From Spirochaetales bacterium (GTDB lineage: Bacteria; Spirochaetota; Spirochaetia; Sphaerochaetales; Sphaerochaetaceae): 35,268 nt of DNA. Each line of letters starts with the position of its first letter. Within the stretch, counting starts at the first letter, position 1. Below, one piece after another: positions 10,999 through 25,577 of this stretch. The stretch lies in assembly GCA_012523305.1 (NCBI GenBank), contig JAAYIV010000037.1, forward strand, positions 1 through 35,268, written 5' to 3'. The notes beneath the pieces were generated by a model. It was not told where the DNA came from. It worked only from the letters and a program-made list of their open reading frames with translations, and searched no databases. The position numbers and the translations under genes are program-made.

Positions 10999-12706
10999 AT
11001 TTTTTCCTTTTGATTGATTCAGCTATGAAAAATATGATGATATAAAAAAGAATCAAGACCGAGCCTAATGCACAAGCAGCATTATAATTGTACGACCCTA
11101 TAAGGCGATACATGACAATCGGTATGGTGATGACATGTGAATCAGACAAGACGAGAGTCGCGTTAAGTTCACCCATGGAGATGGCAAATGCAAAAGATGC
11201 TCCGGTTACCATCGCTGAACGCAGCAACGGAATCTCAATCTTTCTGAAGGTTTTTGAAACGGTTGCTCCCAAAGTCATCGATGCTTGCATGTATGTTGGC
11301 AGAATACTCCTATAGGTAGGTAAAATTGTTCGTAACACCAAAGGAGAGGCAATGACGACATGAGCCATCACCAATGCAATCATTTTCCAGGATGTCGACC
11401 CATATAGTCTTGAAGAGATTATGTGGTATCCCAACCCGATGATCACAGATGAAACAGCCATCGGCATCATTGCTAGCAATTCGGTCAATAGTCTTCCTCT
11501 TTGCTTTAGCGAGCAGAGGATTGCCGATGTGATGGTACTGGTAATCAACGAAACTAATGCCGTGACAAAAGCGATCGCCGTGCTATAGAGTATCGCGGTT
11601 ATCGCACTGGTAAATAGAAAAGACTGCGAAAATCCAAACAATTGTCGGTACCATTTAAGTGAAAATTCCATCTGGCTCGTTCGTGTTAACGGTGCTTGAA
11701 ACGACCTTACGACAATTGCGATCATCGGGCCCAAAACGAATATCGCCAGAAGCATCGAGTAAACAATGATCAGGAACACGGCAGCAAATGTGGGTTTACG
11801 TAAGCCCATCATCCTTTTTCTAGTACTCAACGGGCTTGTAAACTCTTCCTGGTTACTCATGATGTTCTGCATGTATGAATAGACTGCGACGAAACATAAT
11901 GCTATGACGATTGAAACTACACTTAACGCAGCGGCAGCATTGGTATCGAGCATAATTCGTGCTTCACGGTATATTTCAACTTCCATCGTGGTAAATTGAG
12001 GGCCGCCCCCGAGAACAAGAATGATAGCAAAACTTGAATAGCAGAATAAGAAGACCAGCGTGGAAGCACTGATGATCGCAGGAGTCAACCGGGGTAGCGT
12101 AATTGTCCTGAATGTTGTGAAGCCTCTTGCTCCTAGTGTAGAGGCTGCTTGGTTTGCGCTCACAGGCAAACGTTCCCAATACGATGAGATGAGACCCATC
12201 GCGATCGGTATGTTATAAAAAGCATGGGCCATGATAATGGCTTTGAACGAATAGAGAATGTGTAAAGGTGGTTCGTTCAAGTCGAACAATTGAATCAACA
12301 TCCGATTTACCATCCCGCTGTTACCATAAAATATCACGAATCCCAATACTACAAGAATGGATGGCAATACGAACGGAACCATGCAAAGTGATTTGATCAG
12401 ACGTTTTCCCTTAAATTCAAAATTGGATGTCAGATATGCTCCGGGCAAGGCTACCAATACTGAAACGAACGTGCTCAAAAATGCTTGGAACAATGTGAAG
12501 GCCAATATCCGTATGATATAGGGGTTCGTTACAATCGATGTAATTCTTTGAAAAGTAACAGTGCCAGCGTCATCGACAAAAGCGTTGAACAAAAGTATCG
12601 CAAGAGGAATAATAAAAAGCACGATGAGTATGAGTAATCCAGGAAGACCTATCAATGAATAGAATGAACTGTGTTGATAGACAGATCTGGGAGCACCTTG
12701 TTTCAT
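10991..12706 (-). CDS. thiP: Thiamine ABC transporter, permease
   Basis: A 571-residue inner-membrane permease with about 12 transmembrane segments. It is a fusion of two permease domains, as in ThiP and FbpB. Each half has an EAA-type coupling region: AASTLGARGFTTFRTITLP in the first and ASMTLGATVSKTFRKIEIP in the second. I use the ATG at 12706 because it overlaps the thiB stop by ATGA and has GGAGG upstream. It forms the channel of the riboswitch-controlled thiamine importer. Confidence 0.9.
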   Translation of the reverse strand: MKQGAPRSVYQHSSFYSLIGLPGLLILIVLFIIPLAILLFNAFVDDAGTVTFQRITSIVTNPYIIRILAFTLFQAFLSTFVSVLVALPGAYLTSNFEFKGKRLIKSLCMVPFVLPSILVVLGFVIFYGNSGMVNRMLIQLFDLNEPPLHILYSFKAIIMAHAFYNIPIAMGLISSYWERLPVSANQAASTLGARGFTTFRTITLPRLTPAIISASTLVFLFCYSSFAIILVLGGGPQFTTMEVEIYREARIMLDTNAAAALSVVSIVIALCFVAVYSYMQNIMSNQEEFTSPLSTRKRMMGLRKPTFAAVFLIIVYSMLLAIFVLGPMIAIVVRSFQAPLTRTSQMEFSLKWYRQLFGFSQSFLFTSAITAILYSTAIAFVTALVSLITSTITSAILCSLKQRGRLLTELLAMMPMAVSSVIIGLGYHIISSRLYGSTSWKMIALVMAHVVIASPLVLRTILPTYRSILPTYMQASMTLGATVSKTFRKIEIPLLRSAMVTGASFAFAISMGELNATLVLSDSHVITIPIVMYRLIGSYNYNAACALGSVLILFYIIIFFIAESIKRKKYA

Positions 12707-13731
12707 CTGCTCATTGCCTCCACCCATTCAGTAAGCCATCTATCCTGATTTTTTACAAGGATTTCAAAGTCAATACTCAACAATTTCTTTGGTTGCGCGA
12801 TCACGTCAAAGGCAGGGGGAAGTTCGGTAGTCATATTCGCGGGATACATGACATTTGCAACGGCAATAGTCGATTGGGCATCGGTCAGCAGGTATTCGAT
12901 GAATGCTTTCGCTCCATCTTTGTTTTTTGAACTGGTAAGCATACCGACACCTTCGATTACCAGCGCATTGCCTTCTTCAAATGCCGTGGAAACATAACGG
13001 TCGGTATCTTCCGCCATGATGTGATAAACGGGACTCGTGGTATAACTGATGACTATCGGTGCTTCGCCTTGAGTGAACAATCCATAGCCTGACGACCATG
13101 AATCAGCGATGGTGAGAATATTTGGTTTGAGGGCTGTCCACCAAGAGATATAATTTTCTCCATATACGGCATATGACCATTCAAGAAGTCCCATTCCGAC
13201 ACTCGATGTGCGGGGATCCATGAGGATAATGCTCTTTTTCCATGTGGGGTCAAGCAAATCCTGCATCGAGACAGGTGGCGTATCGATATGATCGGAATCA
13301 TAGATAAACGAGAATACTCCGTAATTGAAAGGGATGAATACGTTATCAGGATCGATATGTAAGAACGGAAAGATTTCATTCATCGCCCGCGGGACATATG
13401 CTTCGAACAATCCTGAATCTCGCATTTGTCCCAACGATCCGTTCGGAATACCAAGAATGATATCGGCTCTCGGATTGTTTCGTTCCAACTGTGCACGACG
13501 CAACAGTTCTGAGGCGTTGCCTACCGAAACCAAATGTACTTTTATCCCCGTACTTTGTTCGAATCCCGCGATTACGGCAGGCCCTGGACCCCATTCAGAT
13601 ACGAAAGAATCATACGCATAAACTGTGATAGCATTGTCCTGTTGGTAGGGTTGTTCTTTTTGTGCCGCGGTAAATATGGGCGACGAGATTAAAAGGATGA
13701 CAACCACCAAACTTAAGAAACGGTGTTTCAT
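12703..13731 (-). CDS. thiB: Thiamine ABC transporter, periplasmic binding protein
   Basis: A 342-residue periplasmic solute-binding protein with an N-terminal signal peptide (cleavage likely after FTAAQ). The first mature segment ITVYAYDSFVSEWGPGP and the following LERNNPRADIILGIPNG resemble the TbpA/ThiB family closely. It captures thiamine or its phosphates for ThiPQ. The gene sits 55 nt downstream of a TPP riboswitch, which independently supports the substrate. It has a strong GGAGGAGGT Shine-Dalgarno a few nt before the ATG. Confidence 0.93.
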   Translation of the reverse strand: MKHRFLSLVVVILLISSPIFTAAQKEQPYQQDNAITVYAYDSFVSEWGPGPAVIAGFEQSTGIKVHLVSVGNASELLRRAQLERNNPRADIILGIPNGSLGQMRDSGLFEAYVPRAMNEIFPFLHIDPDNVFIPFNYGVFSFIYDSDHIDTPPVSMQDLLDPTWKKSIILMDPRTSSVGMGLLEWSYAVYGENYISWWTALKPNILTIADSWSSGYGLFTQGEAPIVISYTTSPVYHIMAEDTDRYVSTAFEEGNALVIEGVGMLTSSKNKDGAKAFIEYLLTDAQSTIAVANVMYPANMTTELPPAFDVIAQPKKLLSIDFEILVKNQDRWLTEWVEAMSR

Positions 13732-13786
13732 GATACACCTCCTCCATTGGTTTGCTGTCGATGGGGATTCATAGCGGAAGAAACAT

Positions 13787-13861
13787 GTCTCCCTTCGCTG
13801 GTATTATCCAGATCAGGTTCAACGGGTTTGATCTCAGGCCTCACATGGCCACCCCATGACA
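13787..13861 (-). promoter_or_regulatory. TPP riboswitch (THI element)
   Basis: Read on the - strand the element begins GTCATGGGGTGGCC, continues with GGCCTGAGATC and ACCCGTTGAACCTGATC, and closes with TAATACCAGCGAAGGGA. These are the conserved THI-box blocks in the right order. It lies upstream of thiBPQ and should shut off expression when TPP is plentiful. I see no hairpin with a U-run between it and thiB, so control of translation by hiding the GGAGGAGGT site is more likely than termination. Confidence 0.95.
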
Positions 13862-13866
13862 CACAA

Positions 13867-14692: not shown

Positions 14693-15517
14693 CTATTCGA
14701 TGTGATTTACTGTGGTTTTTGGAAATAGTAACGAGACAGCTAGGATAATCGCTGACACCAGTGCAGTGCTTGCCCCTACGGGAAGATCCAATGCCAATGC
14801 GATGAGAAAGCCTCCGATGGAAGAAAGCATGCCAAATGCCGAACTGAGCACTAAGGCTATCGCAAAGTTTCTGGCGATTCTCAATGCGGCAATTGCCGGG
14901 AGCAAAATCAAAGCGTCTACTAGCAAAGCCCCTACAAGTCTTAACGCTGTGGCCACCCCGACACCTAGAAGAATGAACATGATCATGGCAATGGCATCTA
15001 CAGGTACGCCCAAGTTCCTGGCGGTTTCTTTATCAAGCAATACTAATTGGACTTCCCTGTAGGCAATCGAGAAGAAAAGGAGAATGAAAATTCCCAAAGC
15101 AAAAACAAGAATGAGGTCTCCGCTCGTAAGCATCAATATGTTGCCTGCAAAGATATCGAACACGTGCATCGCGGGGACTCCGGATACCGCAAGGATGATA
15201 AAAGCCCCTGCCAATGAACCCGTCATGATCAAACCGCTCGCAGAACTGGTGGAAATCGAACGTTTGTTACTGATCGAAGCCATGAGAACAGAAGAAAGGA
15301 CTACCAGGGTAAAAGCTCCCAATATTGGAGGGTAGGCCAAGGCAGTGGAAACGGCTGCACCCAATAGCCCCGTATGCATCAGTGTGAAACGGATGGCAGT
15401 AAGATTCAATGAGACGATAATGATTCCCAATAGCGATAATGTCCCCCCGGCGATTACCATGCCAATAAAAGCATTCCTGATGATGGGTAGAGAAAAAGCT
15501 TGGATTAATGCGTTCAT
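14693..15517 (-). CDS. ZnuB-like metal ABC transporter, permease
   Basis: A 274-residue inner-membrane protein with about eight hydrophobic segments, typical of the ABC-3 permease family for Zn, Mn or Fe. Conserved features include the segment LVGALLVDALILLPAIAA and the glycine-rich cytoplasmic region DKETARNLGVPVDA. It overlaps the upstream ATPase gene by ATGA at 15514-15517 and is followed by the binding-protein gene after 6 nt, so it is tightly coupled to both. The transported metal is not certain. Confidence 0.88.
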   Translation of the reverse strand: MNALIQAFSLPIIRNAFIGMVIAGGTLSLLGIIIVSLNLTAIRFTLMHTGLLGAAVSTALAYPPILGAFTLVVLSSVLMASISNKRSISTSSASGLIMTGSLAGAFIILAVSGVPAMHVFDIFAGNILMLTSGDLILVFALGIFILLFFSIAYREVQLVLLDKETARNLGVPVDAIAMIMFILLGVGVATALRLVGALLVDALILLPAIAALRIARNFAIALVLSSAFGMLSSIGGFLIALALDLPVGASTALVSAIILAVSLLFPKTTVNHIE

Positions 15518-16203
15518 GCCATTTCTCCATTTAACTCGAATATGTGACCGTCCTCTATTTTCAGCAATCGATCATGTTTCATAAGCGGCATATGTTCATG
15601 TGTGACTGTTATCATCGTGATATGCAATTCTTTATGTAGAGATCGAATCAATTGAATAAATTCATCTTTACTTTCAGGGTCCAGATAAGTGGTCGGCTCA
15701 TCCATCAAAAGCAACGGCGGTTTGCGAACAAGAGCACGAGCGAGAGCTATTCTTTGACGCTGCCCACCTGAAAGTGTCCTAATATCCTTTGTCGCCAGAT
15801 GCTGTGCTCCTATAAGCTCCAAGGTGTCCCATGCAGCTTGATAATCTTCTTTCTTGCATCGGTGCAACCAAGAAAAAGATGATCCCCATCGGCCGATGAG
15901 TACACTTTCAAATACTGATATGGCAATCTTCGGATCCTGTTGGATTTGTGAAAGATATCCGATCTGGATACGTACGCATCTTTTCGCCGCTTCACAGTTC
16001 AACGGCGTGTTAAGTACCGTAACGGTACCCGAAGTTGGAGATAGAGCTCCGCATAATAGTTTCAGTAACGTGCTTTTTCCACCTCCGTTGGGGCCAATTA
16101 TCACAACAAAGGTTCCGCTCTCAACCGAGAAGGAGACATTGTGGATCACAGGATCTTTACCATAGCCGGCTTCCACCTGATCTAATGTGATTATCGAACT
16201 CAT
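15514..16203 (-). CDS. ZnuC-like metal ABC transporter, ATPase
   Basis: A 229-residue ATPase of the ABC-3 metal importer group. Walker A GPNGGGKST is at 37-45, the signature LSGGQ at 144-148 and Walker B LLLMDEP ends at 170, followed by VTHEH. The frame is open far upstream, but the ATG at 16203 overlaps the stop of the NikR-like gene and has AAGGGG about 8 nt before it. The upstream extension would duplicate the NikR coding region in another frame and looks nothing like an ABC protein. It works with the permease and binding protein encoded directly downstream. Confidence 0.9.
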   Translation of the reverse strand: MSSIITLDQVEAGYGKDPVIHNVSFSVESGTFVVIIGPNGGGKSTLLKLLCGALSPTSGTVTVLNTPLNCEAAKRCVRIQIGYLSQIQQDPKIAISVFESVLIGRWGSSFSWLHRCKKEDYQAAWDTLELIGAQHLATKDIRTLSGGQRQRIALARALVRKPPLLLMDEPTTYLDPESKDEFIQLIRSLHKELHITMITVTHEHMPLMKHDRLLKIEDGHIFELNGEMA

Positions 16204-16619
16204 CAATACAACCCCTTGAATACATCTTCGGTAGCGACAAACGTAAGATTTCCGATTACGTGTCGTTGTCCGATAAGTTCTTGGGCCCAGGCTCGAACTT
16301 CTTTGCATACGCCTGAAACTATGAGGATTTTCATGCAGATGTTTTTCTCAAGATGCTGTTGGAGATTGGTGATGAGGCGTAAGGAAGCGTATCGATCGAT
16401 AGGATTCCTTACCAACTGCACAGTATAATGGAAAATCAATTGGACAATTGCCGTCACCTCCGTGTCATCGTCTTGAATGCTGTTGGCTACTAATTCTTTT
16501 CTAACGAGAGAACGAATCGCTTCGCTTCTATTCGCATAATTTTGATTGATGGTGAGTTTGTCCAGTTCTTCAACCAGCTCCTTTTCCATCGAGACTCCGA
16601 ATCGAATGATTTCTGACAT
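16203..16619 (-). CDS. NikR-like ribbon-helix-helix metal regulator
   Basis: A 138-residue protein aligned by eye with NikR. Residues 1-45 are the ribbon-helix-helix DNA-binding domain (IIRFGVSMEKELVEELDKL, NRSEAIRSLVR). The remainder is an ACT-like metal domain ending IGQRHVIGNLTFVATED. Of the four residues that bind nickel in E. coli NikR (H76, H87, H89, C95), H89 and C95 are kept while positions 76 and 87 are Arg and Gln. The sensed metal may therefore not be nickel. It heads a unit with a ZnuCBA-type importer, probably as its repressor, and has an AGGGGG Shine-Dalgarno. Confidence 0.82.
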   Translation of the reverse strand: MSEIIRFGVSMEKELVEELDKLTINQNYANRSEAIRSLVRKELVANSIQDDDTEVTAIVQLIFHYTVQLVRNPIDRYASLRLITNLQQHLEKNICMKILIVSGVCKEVRAWAQELIGQRHVIGNLTFVATEDVFKGLY

Positions 16620-16661: not shown

Positions 16662-16691
16662 AGTAACACGAAATAAGATTATTGTGCTACT
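16662..16691. promoter_or_regulatory. Candidate operator for the NikR-like regulator
   Basis: AGTAACAC (16662-16669), 14 nt, GTGCTACT (16684-16691): an inverted repeat with one mismatch. Half-site centres are 22 bp apart, the same as in the E. coli NikR operator (GTATGA-N16-TCATAC). It overlaps a TACTAT -10 candidate for the NikR-like gene on the - strand. A third related half-site, CCAGTAGC, lies at 16728-16735, inside the divergent nnr promoter. Confidence 0.5.
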
Positions 16692-16758: not shown

Positions 16759-18342
16759 ATGGAAGCATTGGTAAGTACCAAGACTATGGAGCAAATTGAT
16801 CGCGACGCCCAACGCCAATGGGGTTTTCCCGAACTTGTTTTAATGGAACAGGCAGGAATCAAGGGCTGGAATGCTTTTCTGGAAAATACCGAAAGGCAAG
16901 AAGTGAAAACGTCCAAATTGTTATTTGTCGCTGGTGGCGGTAACAACGGGGGAGATGCCCTTGTCATGGCTCGGCAAGCTTATTTGGATGATTTCAAGCA
17001 TATCGGTGTGTTGCTTGTCGGTTCTCACATTTCCAATGCCTGTTTGATCCAACGCACGATGATCGCTTCACTGGGACTTACAACGTATGAGCTGTCGGTC
17101 GAAGCCGAAGACATAGAACCGCAGGTACGGACGTTGATCGAACATGCCGATATCATCATCGATGGCCTCGCTGGGACTGGATTGAGGGGAAGTTTGACCG
17201 GAAAAGCTGCCTTTTTAGTCAAACTGTTGAATGGACAACGCGAGCGGGGAGCTCATATCTGGGCTATCGATATACCTTCGGGCTGTTCGGATACGCTTCA
17301 AAGCGTTCATCCTAACATCAATGCAAACATAACCGCGACCATGGGGTTAAAAAAAGCAGCATGCTATCATCCCGGTTCAAGAGAAGCCTGGGGGAAGGTA
17401 ATCGTAGTGAATCCGTCATTTCCACCACAACTGTTGGCTCGTGCGGAGAAGAGTGCTCTGCTTTGTGATGAAAGTGACATTGAAGTGGTTCGCTTGAAAG
17501 AGGATAGTTATAAAAACAAGCGGGGACATATCGGAATCTTTGCTGGGAGCCGACAGTATACGGGAGCTCCGAGATTGGCTGCAAAGGCAGCATTTCATTC
17601 TCGTGCGGGATTGGTTACCATTTGTTGTGACGATGAGATTTCCTCGGTTGTCGCAACGACTTCACCTACAATTATAGTTCGATCAATAATGAAAGGAGAA
17701 ACTATTCTGGCAGATGAGTTAGTTTCAGAATTTTCTTCTTTGGTAGCCGGACCCGGTTGGGGATTTGAACATGAACAGCAATTGTTTGAAATTCTAGCCA
17801 GCGGGATTCCGACGGTATTGGATGCTGATGCGATCACGATCTTTGCGAGTCTTTTTTCAAAAGGAAAACTAGCTAACCTGTCGTTGAATAAGGTCGTACT
17901 GACTCCGCACCCGGGTGAACTGCATCGGATGCTGGAAAGACTTGGCATGCCGTTGTTAGCCCAAGAGACCTCAATCGTAAATAGTTCAAGTGAATCGTTT
18001 ATCGAGTCGATGCATAAAATAGCTGCCATGCTACATGTGGTCTTGGTATACAGGAGCCATGTGGTGTGGTTGTTTGACGGTAACGGAGAATATTCGGTTC
18101 CAATGGTCGTGGACGGTATGAACAATGCCCTCGGAGTCGCTGGAAGCGGTGATGTATTTGCTGGAATTATCGGTGCTATGTTAGCTCAACATGCCGAGCC
18201 GATGATAGCTGCTGTCAATGCAGCGGTAATTCACCAGAAAGCGGGCATGCTCGCAAGAACATCGCACGGGTGGTTTGATTCGGATGAATTGACCGAGTAC
18301 GTAGGCCATGCTTGCAGATTGTTGGAACAAAAAGCCATATGA
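16759..18342 (+). CDS. nnr: Bifunctional NAD(P)HX epimerase/dehydratase
   Basis: Metabolite-repair enzyme that restores hydrated NADH and NADPH. The N-terminal YjeF_N domain epimerises the R form (GGGNNGGDALV at 59-69). The C-terminal ribokinase-like domain dehydrates the S form using ADP. TPHPGEL and the GSGD motif with catalytic D465 mark the second domain. The 527-residue length is normal for the fused bacterial form. It starts with an ATG exactly 6 nt after a -10 and no Shine-Dalgarno, so the mRNA is probably leaderless. It is divergent from the nikR-like unit and overlaps the next gene by ATGA. Confidence 0.94.
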   Translation: MEALVSTKTMEQIDRDAQRQWGFPELVLMEQAGIKGWNAFLENTERQEVKTSKLLFVAGGGNNGGDALVMARQAYLDDFKHIGVLLVGSHISNACLIQRTMIASLGLTTYELSVEAEDIEPQVRTLIEHADIIIDGLAGTGLRGSLTGKAAFLVKLLNGQRERGAHIWAIDIPSGCSDTLQSVHPNINANITATMGLKKAACYHPGSREAWGKVIVVNPSFPPQLLARAEKSALLCDESDIEVVRLKEDSYKNKRGHIGIFAGSRQYTGAPRLAAKAAFHSRAGLVTICCDDEISSVVATTSPTIIVRSIMKGETILADELVSEFSSLVAGPGWGFEHEQQLFEILASGIPTVLDADAITIFASLFSKGKLANLSLNKVVLTPHPGELHRMLERLGMPLLAQETSIVNSSSESFIESMHKIAAMLHVVLVYRSHVVWLFDGNGEYSVPMVVDGMNNALGVAGSGDVFAGIIGAMLAQHAEPMIAAVNAAVIHQKAGMLARTSHGWFDSDELTEYVGHACRLLEQKAI

Positions 18343-25341: not shown

Positions 25342-25358
25342 TGGAATTCCTATAAAAT

Positions 25359-25544
25359 GACCTGCGGTGCAGTTCGGAGGATATCTCTTGAACCTAAGGT
25401 TCAAGGGGGAAACTAGTTGCCTGGCATTCTGTTCCTGCTCAAAGAGGCAGACCTCTCCGCCGGAGCAATGCAACCAGACTATGCCGTCTCCCATGGTTGT
25501 AGTTTGAGCCAAGAGAATTGTCTCTTTACCAAACACCGCAGGCC
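25359..25544 (-). ncRNA. ssrS: 6S RNA
   Basis: The - strand transcript would be about 185 nt. Its ends pair: CCTGCGGTG (25534-25542) with CACCGCAGG (25361-25369), extended by two more pairs. Near the 3' end is CCTTGAACC-TTA-GGTTCAAG, almost the same as the conserved 3' hairpin of E. coli 6S RNA (CCUUGAACC...GGUUCAAGG). Between the two is a long imperfect rod with an internal bubble. 6S RNA mimics an open promoter and holds sigma70 RNA polymerase in stationary phase. It lies downstream of a ZapB-like gene, as 6S lies downstream of zapA in gammaproteobacteria. I see no convincing promoter just upstream. Confidence 0.88.
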
Positions 25545-25577
25545 TATCATGTCTGTCTTACATGCTATCACAGTAAG

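Follow-up and report, generated by a model that had tools for sequence, protein, structure and literature searches.

A NikR-derived regulator with an apparently replaced nickel site heads an ABC-3 metal-importer unit in Sphaerochaetaceae

The gene unit and its regulator

In this work we have analysed a window of 35,268 nt, contig JAAYIV010000037.1 of assembly GCA_012523305.1, from a Spirochaetales bacterium (Sphaerochaetaceae) whose genome (G000) comprises 187 contigs and 2.56 Mb. The unit of interest consists of four packed genes, which read from the 5' end as regulator, ATPase, permease and binding protein (Table 1). The TGA of the regulator gene and the ATG of the ATPase gene have one base in common, the ATPase and permease genes overlap by 4 nt, and 6 nt separate the permease gene from that of the binding protein. 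The predicted operator lies 44-71 nt 5' of the regulator start codon. The same gene order was found again in other genera of the window's family and in two other families of the class (G486 and G457), so the unit is not a matter of chance. Beyond the binding-protein gene, thiB opens another unit, since a TPP riboswitch stands before it, and for this reason we rejected the downstream thiamine genes as targets of the same regulator. A 6S RNA (RF00013, 48.7 bits) lies elsewhere in the window, at 25355-25547 on the reverse strand.

Table 1. Features of the metal-importer unit and its neighbours in the window
Feature	Position	Strand	Remarks
NikR-derived regulator	16203..16619	-	138 aa, RHH and ACT-like domain; R76/Q87/H89/C95, K97
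Predicted operator GTAGCACAATAATCTTATTTCGTGTTAC	16663..16690	-	palindrome GTARCAC-N14-GTGYTAC
ABC transporter ATPase	15514..16203	-	PF00005 116.9 bits; best NCBIfam match AztA, below cut-off
ABC-3 family permease	14693..15517	-	PF00950 124.6 bits, cut-off 20.1
Short cluster A-I metal-binding protein without His-rich loop	13904..14686	-	from alignment and predicted fold
TPP riboswitch	13774..13866	-	heads separate thiamine transporter unit; end of metal operon
thiB	12703-13731		next gene after the binding-protein gene
NAD(P)H-hydrate repair gene	16759-18342		divergent neighbour of the regulator gene

The original prediction for this DNA had placed a NikR-like RHH/ACT gene first in an ABC-3 unit, and the domain matches bear this out. 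The RHH domain of the regulator scored 29.3 bits against Pfam RHH_1 (PF01402, cut-off 20.5) and its C-terminal ACT-like domain 24.1 bits against NikR_C (PF08753, cut-off 22), the latter over profile positions 31-69 of 77 only; this is the one NikR_C match in the window's genome. Five NCBIfam NikR models, three equivalogs and two subfamilies, all matched the regulator and none did so at its cut-off (96.2 bits with a cut-off of 105, 70.3 with 119, 65.1 with 83, 58 with 175 and 50.1 with 111). Its closest sequence relatives in the PDB are NikR chains, and all 50 Foldseek matches listed for the predicted model (pLDDT 89) are NikR. Residues 65-80 are modelled without a helix; it is presumably here that the NikR helix carrying H76 would fall. 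Short NikR_C matches at three other loci (L054, L057 and L060) were dropped. They lie beside genes which by eye are HydE/F/G-like (the two that were scanned are radical SAM genes), and we take these short proteins to resemble the TM1266 ACT protein.

Replacement of the nickel site

In E. coli NikR, nickel is bound by H87, H89 and C95 of one subunit together with H76 of its neighbour, as set out in PMC7055735. The alignments gave R76, Q87, H89 and C95 for the window's regulator, exactly the residues which had been assigned by eye, and no alignment restored the square-planar set of H87, H89, C95 and H76. We scanned 84,980 species genomes (genome_contigs) with a clade alignment seeded on the motif RFGVSM[DE]x[EQ] and kept the best 80 of 97 loci. 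These 80 fall into two residue sets with no intermediates: a clade of 23 loci (L073-L095), in which His is absent at positions 76 and 87, and 57 canonical loci (L096-L152) with H, H, H and C, a sample of those canonical NikRs which carry the seed motif. In the tree a branch with support 100/99 sets all 29 clade rows apart from the rest, making the clade monophyletic; some loci are repeated among these rows, having been drawn from two sources.

Residues were counted over 25 clade rows, which are 25 different sequences, and the 57 canonical rows from the best 80 of 97 loci. Position 76, His in 57/57 canonical rows, varies in the clade (P 8, D 6, A 4, R 3, S 2, E 1, C 1), and position 87, likewise His in 57/57, has become Q in 24 rows and T in one. 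H89 is present in every row of both sets. C95, invariant in the canonical rows (57/57), is kept in 17 of the 25 and missing in eight (V 6, A 1, L 1). Newly fixed in 25/25 clade rows are S79 and N85, the latter being T, S, A or M in canonical NikRs; K97 stands in 25/25 rows where all 57 sampled canonical NikRs have E, and W111 in 24/25 where canonical proteins mostly have L or I. Most clade rows have three residues fewer ahead of position 76, and P73 and P78 each occur in 22/25; unlike them, L055/L093 has three residues more than the canonical proteins. Judging from these alignments, the nickel site of the clade is not decayed but replaced by a new conserved set, S79, N85, Q87, H89, K97 and W111, because replacement residues found in 25/25 rows (S79, N85, H89 and K97) show the same strict conservation as the original set. 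Since H89 is kept throughout and C95 in most rows, metal may still be bound at the old place.

The operator

A palindrome GTARCAC-N13/14-GTGYTAC, searched with a spacer of 13 or 14 over the 23 clade and 57 canonical loci (from the best 80 of 97), was found within 200 bases upstream at no more than one mismatch in 16/23 clade loci (19 with two mismatches) as against 1/57 canonical loci (2/57 at two mismatches); the p value of 1.4e-10 for 16/23 versus 1/57 is too small because of near-copies among the clade loci. No operator at up to two mismatches was found before the regulator gene at L079, L084, L094 and L095; at L084 it stands before fecB instead. The window's own promoter carries the palindrome with 0 mismatches, and only 32 of 20,000 first-order Markov resamples of this one promoter reached even two mismatches. 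In the window's genome the operator is the sole place at no more than one mismatch, where the backward-pattern control also found one place, and we therefore rejected a wider regulon in this genome. The 11 genomes scanned with the pattern together gave 19 such places and 24 for the control. One-mismatch places are thus not meaningful by their number alone, and we put weight on the perfect sites and on the recurrence of the operator before fecB.

The E. coli NikR operator, GTATGA-N16-TCATAC, is 28 bp long (PMC7055735). The NikR signal GTGTTAC-N13/14-GTAACAC has been reported with its half-sites in reversed order for D. psychrophila and D. vulgaris nikK (PMC545781). The clade operator has the half-sites of this NikR signal in reversed order, and its total length is 28 bp as in E. 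coli. From these two matches it appears that DNA recognition stayed NikR-like. NikR family members have palindromic operators of 27-28 bp at the promoters of importers, and one of this kind is predicted here from the sequence. In several loci a TACTAT was noticed by eye 3' of the right half-site. This could be a -10 box, and would then fit repression; a sigma-70 promoter scan at the operator called no promoter.

Linkage to importers

Within the window's family, which comprises the same 139 genomes as its order, the regulator was found in 11; an ABC-3 unit follows it in 8 of them. In two others (G094 and G112) a Peripla_BP_2 binding protein and a FecCD permease come after it, and in G094 also an ATPase (Pfam was run on G094 only). 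In the remaining genome, G088, the contig stops 225 bases downstream of the regulator, and no ATPase homology was found in that stretch. Among the best 80 of 97 loci, ABC-3 homology is present in 18/23 clade loci versus 3/57 canonical ones (Fisher p 1e-10, a value too small because of near-copies among the 23, such as L075/L076, L091/L092 and L078/L081, while L085 and L090 share an isolate name). An absence of this linkage in relatives would have spoken against the original prediction; it is conserved instead. Of the five clade loci without ABC-3 homology, L084 has FecBCD genes, L088 and L090 stop at a contig edge, and L079 and L094, which have ample flanks, showed no homolog of the importers searched. 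By record label, all clade loci among the best 80 of 97 are from spirochaetes except one Clostridiales MAG (L095).

The binding protein

The binding protein of the window scored 23.5 bits against Pfam ZnuA (PF01297), below the cut-off of 29, and no His-rich loop occurs in its sequence, as had been noted before. Its AlphaFold2 model (pLDDT 88) is predicted with a clear cluster A-I metal-binding fold; MntC, PsaA and a metal ABC protein of Listeria match it at Z about 20, and ZnuA is the top Foldseek match. Thirteen clade binding proteins could be aligned, and H70, E73, Y74, D80, E96, D214, H217 and the NFPG at 236-239 are invariant in all of them, while E67 and W216 are kept in 11 and H175 in 12. 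Three binding proteins encoded near a canonical NikR (L062, L108 and L120) have C70 and H73 instead of H70 and E73, that is, a motif C-P-x-H-[YF] as against H-x-x-E-Y in 13/13 clade proteins (H-P-P-E-Y in 11). Residues 70 and 73 are presumably ligands, an assumption we base on where PsaA and ZnuA have their H-E-Y motif, so the likely ligand pair probably differs between the clade and the NikR-adjacent binding proteins. At L062 (4979-8867), in another family of the phylum, a canonical NikR lies close to an ABC-3 unit in convergent orientation, and the binding protein of that unit carries an NFP motif; by eye, the locus also has one gene that is receptor-like and a short one that is TonB-like.

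ABC-3 importers are usually controlled by Zur or DtxR. The window's unit is like ZnuABC, MntABC and AztABC in its PF00950 permease, its ATPase and the cluster A-I fold of its binding protein, but differs from them in that this protein is short, lacks the His loop and falls below the Pfam ZnuA cut-off, and in having a NikR-type regulator and operator.

A FecBCD importer with the same operator

In four carrier genomes the operator was also found at a FecBCD importer. G088 has a perfect operator upstream of it and two mismatches at the regulator's own site; G123 has a one-mismatch site upstream of the same FecBCD type and a perfect operator at the regulator; in G112 and G094 the operator stands directly before fecB. 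Close FecB homologs (63-100% identity) occur in only these 4 of the 139 genomes, all of them regulator carriers, and all four fecB genes are preceded by the operator (0, 0, 1 and 0 mismatches). For comparison, 26 distant FecB loci were fetched and 25 measured, and the best site in their 320 nt upstream had five mismatches; these control stretches are not always promoters, because fecB is not the first gene in some operons. The same regulator type thus appears to act on two unrelated importers, a point in favour of one shared substrate, and the ABC-3 and FecBCD importers probably serve the same need and would be interchangeable. In G094 and G123 the regulator/FecBCD unit has FeoB as its neighbour (TIGR00437, 615 and 494 bits, cut-off 316), and G112 has a FeoB fragment at a contig start, which brings the adjacency to three of the four FecBCD genomes; we regard it as a weak sign of iron. 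The gene after FecBCD in G123 (L209:2049-2660) and that in G094 (L022:1177-1716) have no Pfam match and look alike by eye.

Which transporters are the relatives of this importer? Of the 21 FecB matches that rank next (E down to 2.4e-22), 13 have a LarC match no more than about 4 kb away. Three of these 13 places, L204, L205 and L206, were looked at in detail and have fecB, fecC and fecE together with genes of the FmdE, larE, larB and larC types; at L204, FmdE, LarE and LarC were confirmed by models and LarB by an AIRC match and its position. From this context the lar-linked FecBCD systems are candidate nickel importers, which might supply nickel for the nickel-pincer cofactor; the literature searched offered nothing useful on FmdE/LarC. 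The regulator-linked FecC is 42-45% identical to the FecC of the lar clusters, 39-40% to that of genus g21 and 32-35% to three others. The FecC tree places regulator-linked, lar-linked and g21 proteins together against the three others (93/96, below the star of the tree tool) and the lar-linked group with g21 (81/85), so that the regulator-linked FecC is not joined to the lar ones alone. The second importer is, then, a relative of NiuBDE/FecBCD-type systems and of the lar-linked FecBCD of Sphaerochaetaceae, but differs from the latter in that none of its four loci has lar genes, no carrier has LarC and FeoB adjoins it in three of four.

Which metal?

Five kinds of enzyme were searched for in the 139 genomes of the window's family. 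[NiFe]-hydrogenase and CbiC were found in 0/139, and the latter result led us to reject cobalt for corrin synthesis. LarC was found in 22/139 genomes but in none of the 11 regulator carriers. No match to CODH exceeded the cut-off in any of the 139; weak matches (21-39 bits against a cut-off of 478) occurred in 35 genomes, including 9 of the 11 carriers, and the one checked, in the window's genome, is a hybrid cluster protein (TIGR01703, 670 bits, cut-off 360.8). The urease alpha model matched in 14/139 genomes with 20-29 bits over 35-53 of its 121 positions, seven of them above the cut-off of 23. The carriers with such a match (G122, G123 and G124) are all below it, the one checked (G122) is an amidohydrolase, and the window's genome has no match. 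Nickel for [NiFe]-hydrogenase, LarC, CODH or urease was therefore rejected, as none was found in the carriers by these searches. An older survey (PMC2667541) lists no nickel enzymes for 8 genomes of spirochaetes.

A zinc importer under a NikR-like switch was also rejected, because another contig of the window's genome (C160) has a separate set of ZnuA, ZnuC and ZnuB genes along with one of the FUR family, and because that ZnuA carries a His-rich loop which the binding protein studied here lacks. In two Bipolaricaulota loci (L108:7001-10322 and L120:1919-5291), a canonical NikR with H, H, H and C is followed by an NFPG binding protein of the cluster A-I type, related to the clade binding proteins, an FmdE-family protein, an ATPase and an ABC-3 permease. 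Since a canonical NikR precedes these genes, a nickel importer of the ABC-3 family is plausible in Bipolaricaulota. Work on nickel in cable bacteria (PMC11247825) had no bearing on this system.

Discussion

The regulator is like NikR of E. coli, H. pylori and P. horikoshii in domain order, fold, 28-bp palindromic operator and control of an ABC metal importer. It differs from them in that the clade has neither H76 nor H87 in any of 25 rows, no Cys95 in eight and Lys for Glu97, and in that the window's regulator has no H76 helix in its model and stays below the cut-offs of all five NikR models. The clade, the replacement of its site, the linkage, the operator and the absence of the searched nickel enzymes are all read from the sequences themselves. 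The original prediction offered two readings, a NikR retuned to another metal or nickel or cobalt import through a ZnuABC-type system. The site change turned out larger than it had supposed, and the predicted loss of the H76 helix, the E97K exchange and the new conserved residues favour retuning; nickel import by such a system seems plausible in relatives (L108 and L120).

We consider it somewhat more probable than otherwise that retuning has moved the unit from nickel to a different, non-zinc metal, with Fe(II) or Mn(II) as leading candidates and Co(II) next; nickel sensed differently is a further candidate. The regulator, a descendant of NikR, would bind as RHH dimers to the 28-bp palindrome at its own promoter and would act as an autorepressor. 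Nickel would no longer be sensed through the NikR site, and another conserved pocket, made up of the six residues named above, would take its place. Regulator, ATPase, permease and binding protein would together form a self-controlled metal uptake unit which metal shortage would derepress, and in some genomes the clade would have put the same operator on a FecBCD importer. The change from C-P-x-H-[YF] to H-x-x-E-Y suggests that the binding protein may have changed in parallel with the regulator. Several observations stand against retuning: the FecBCD kin in larE-larB-larC operons and the binding-protein kin beside canonical NikR point back to nickel, H89 is kept in 25/25 rows and C95 in 17/25, L079 and L094 have none of the importers searched, at L079, L084, L094 and L095 the operator is missing ahead of the regulator gene at up to two mismatches, and the enzyme searches covered one family and five kinds of enzyme.

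Could the unit still serve nickel, or nickel and cobalt, with sensing through other ligands (H89, C95 where present and the new residues) or of a nickel chelate? The 42-45% identity of the FecC under the same operator to that of the larE-larB-larC operons speaks for this, as do the canonical NikRs of L108 and L120 beside a related binding protein and ABC-3 unit; moreover, NiuBDE of H. pylori, an importer of the FecCD type, takes up nickel and cobalt (PMC5140060). Against it stand the loss of H76 and H87 in 25/25 rows and of C95 in 8/25, E97K in 25/25 and the lack of any searched nickel enzyme in the carriers, and we hold continued nickel sensing to be unlikely, if a serious alternative. The charge reversal of E97K, the gain of S79, N85, Q87 and W111 (each kept in 24 or 25 of 25 rows) and the predicted loss of the H76 helix would suit a regulator in which the former metal pocket responds to a ligand that is anionic or not a metal, such as a carboxylate or metal chelate. 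Such a ligand would fit the chelates that FecCD importers usually transport and the small molecules that are often bound by ACT domains, whereas bare metal ions are the known substrates of ABC-3 importers with a binding protein of cluster A-I. With H89 invariant and the binding protein predicted to have just this fold, we think this improbable. It could also be that the protein is a constitutive or decayed NikR which binds the promoter only and has no effector, given that the canonical site is lost and C95 varies, but the strictness with which S79, N85, H89 and K97 are kept makes this very improbable indeed.

To return to the retuned unit, it is conceivable, albeit rather doubtful, that the new pocket (S79, N85-x-Q87-x-H89, K97 and W111) senses not the bare nickel ion but possibly an anionic metal chelate, and that the ABC-3 and FecBCD importers were retargeted alongside. 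If true, this would give a second ligand class to the only metal-sensing RHH family; PMC7055735 describes NikR as the sole metal-regulated member of the RHH family. We found no paper on the NikR-derived clade in the literature searched, which mostly excludes subscription journals. The clade appears to keep the DNA signal and the importer control while swapping the sensing pocket, and perhaps represents a metal sensor changing its ligand while the regulon stays; one regulator and one 28-bp operator make a compact two-part test of such a change. It also draws attention to unassigned importers of the ABC-3 and FecBCD types. Family models either match these weakly or label them as transporters of zinc, manganese or iron, and in relatives some of them likely import nickel.

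Further features of the operons

A few of the operons examined have features of their own. In a Geobacter MAG (L098:4255-7423), a ZnuABC-like operon with a His-rich binding protein is directly followed by a canonical NikR. In some of the spirochaete operons a TM1506/DUF1893 domain (PF08973) is fused to the ATPase or encoded just before it (L053:5778-6878 and L083:7408-7857); the literature searched offered nothing useful on this domain. In another MAG (L092:5314-6062), the permease (105 aa) and the binding protein (an ORF of 192 aa) are apparently shortened by internal deletions, and the regulator and operator of this locus are intact despite the shortened importer genes.
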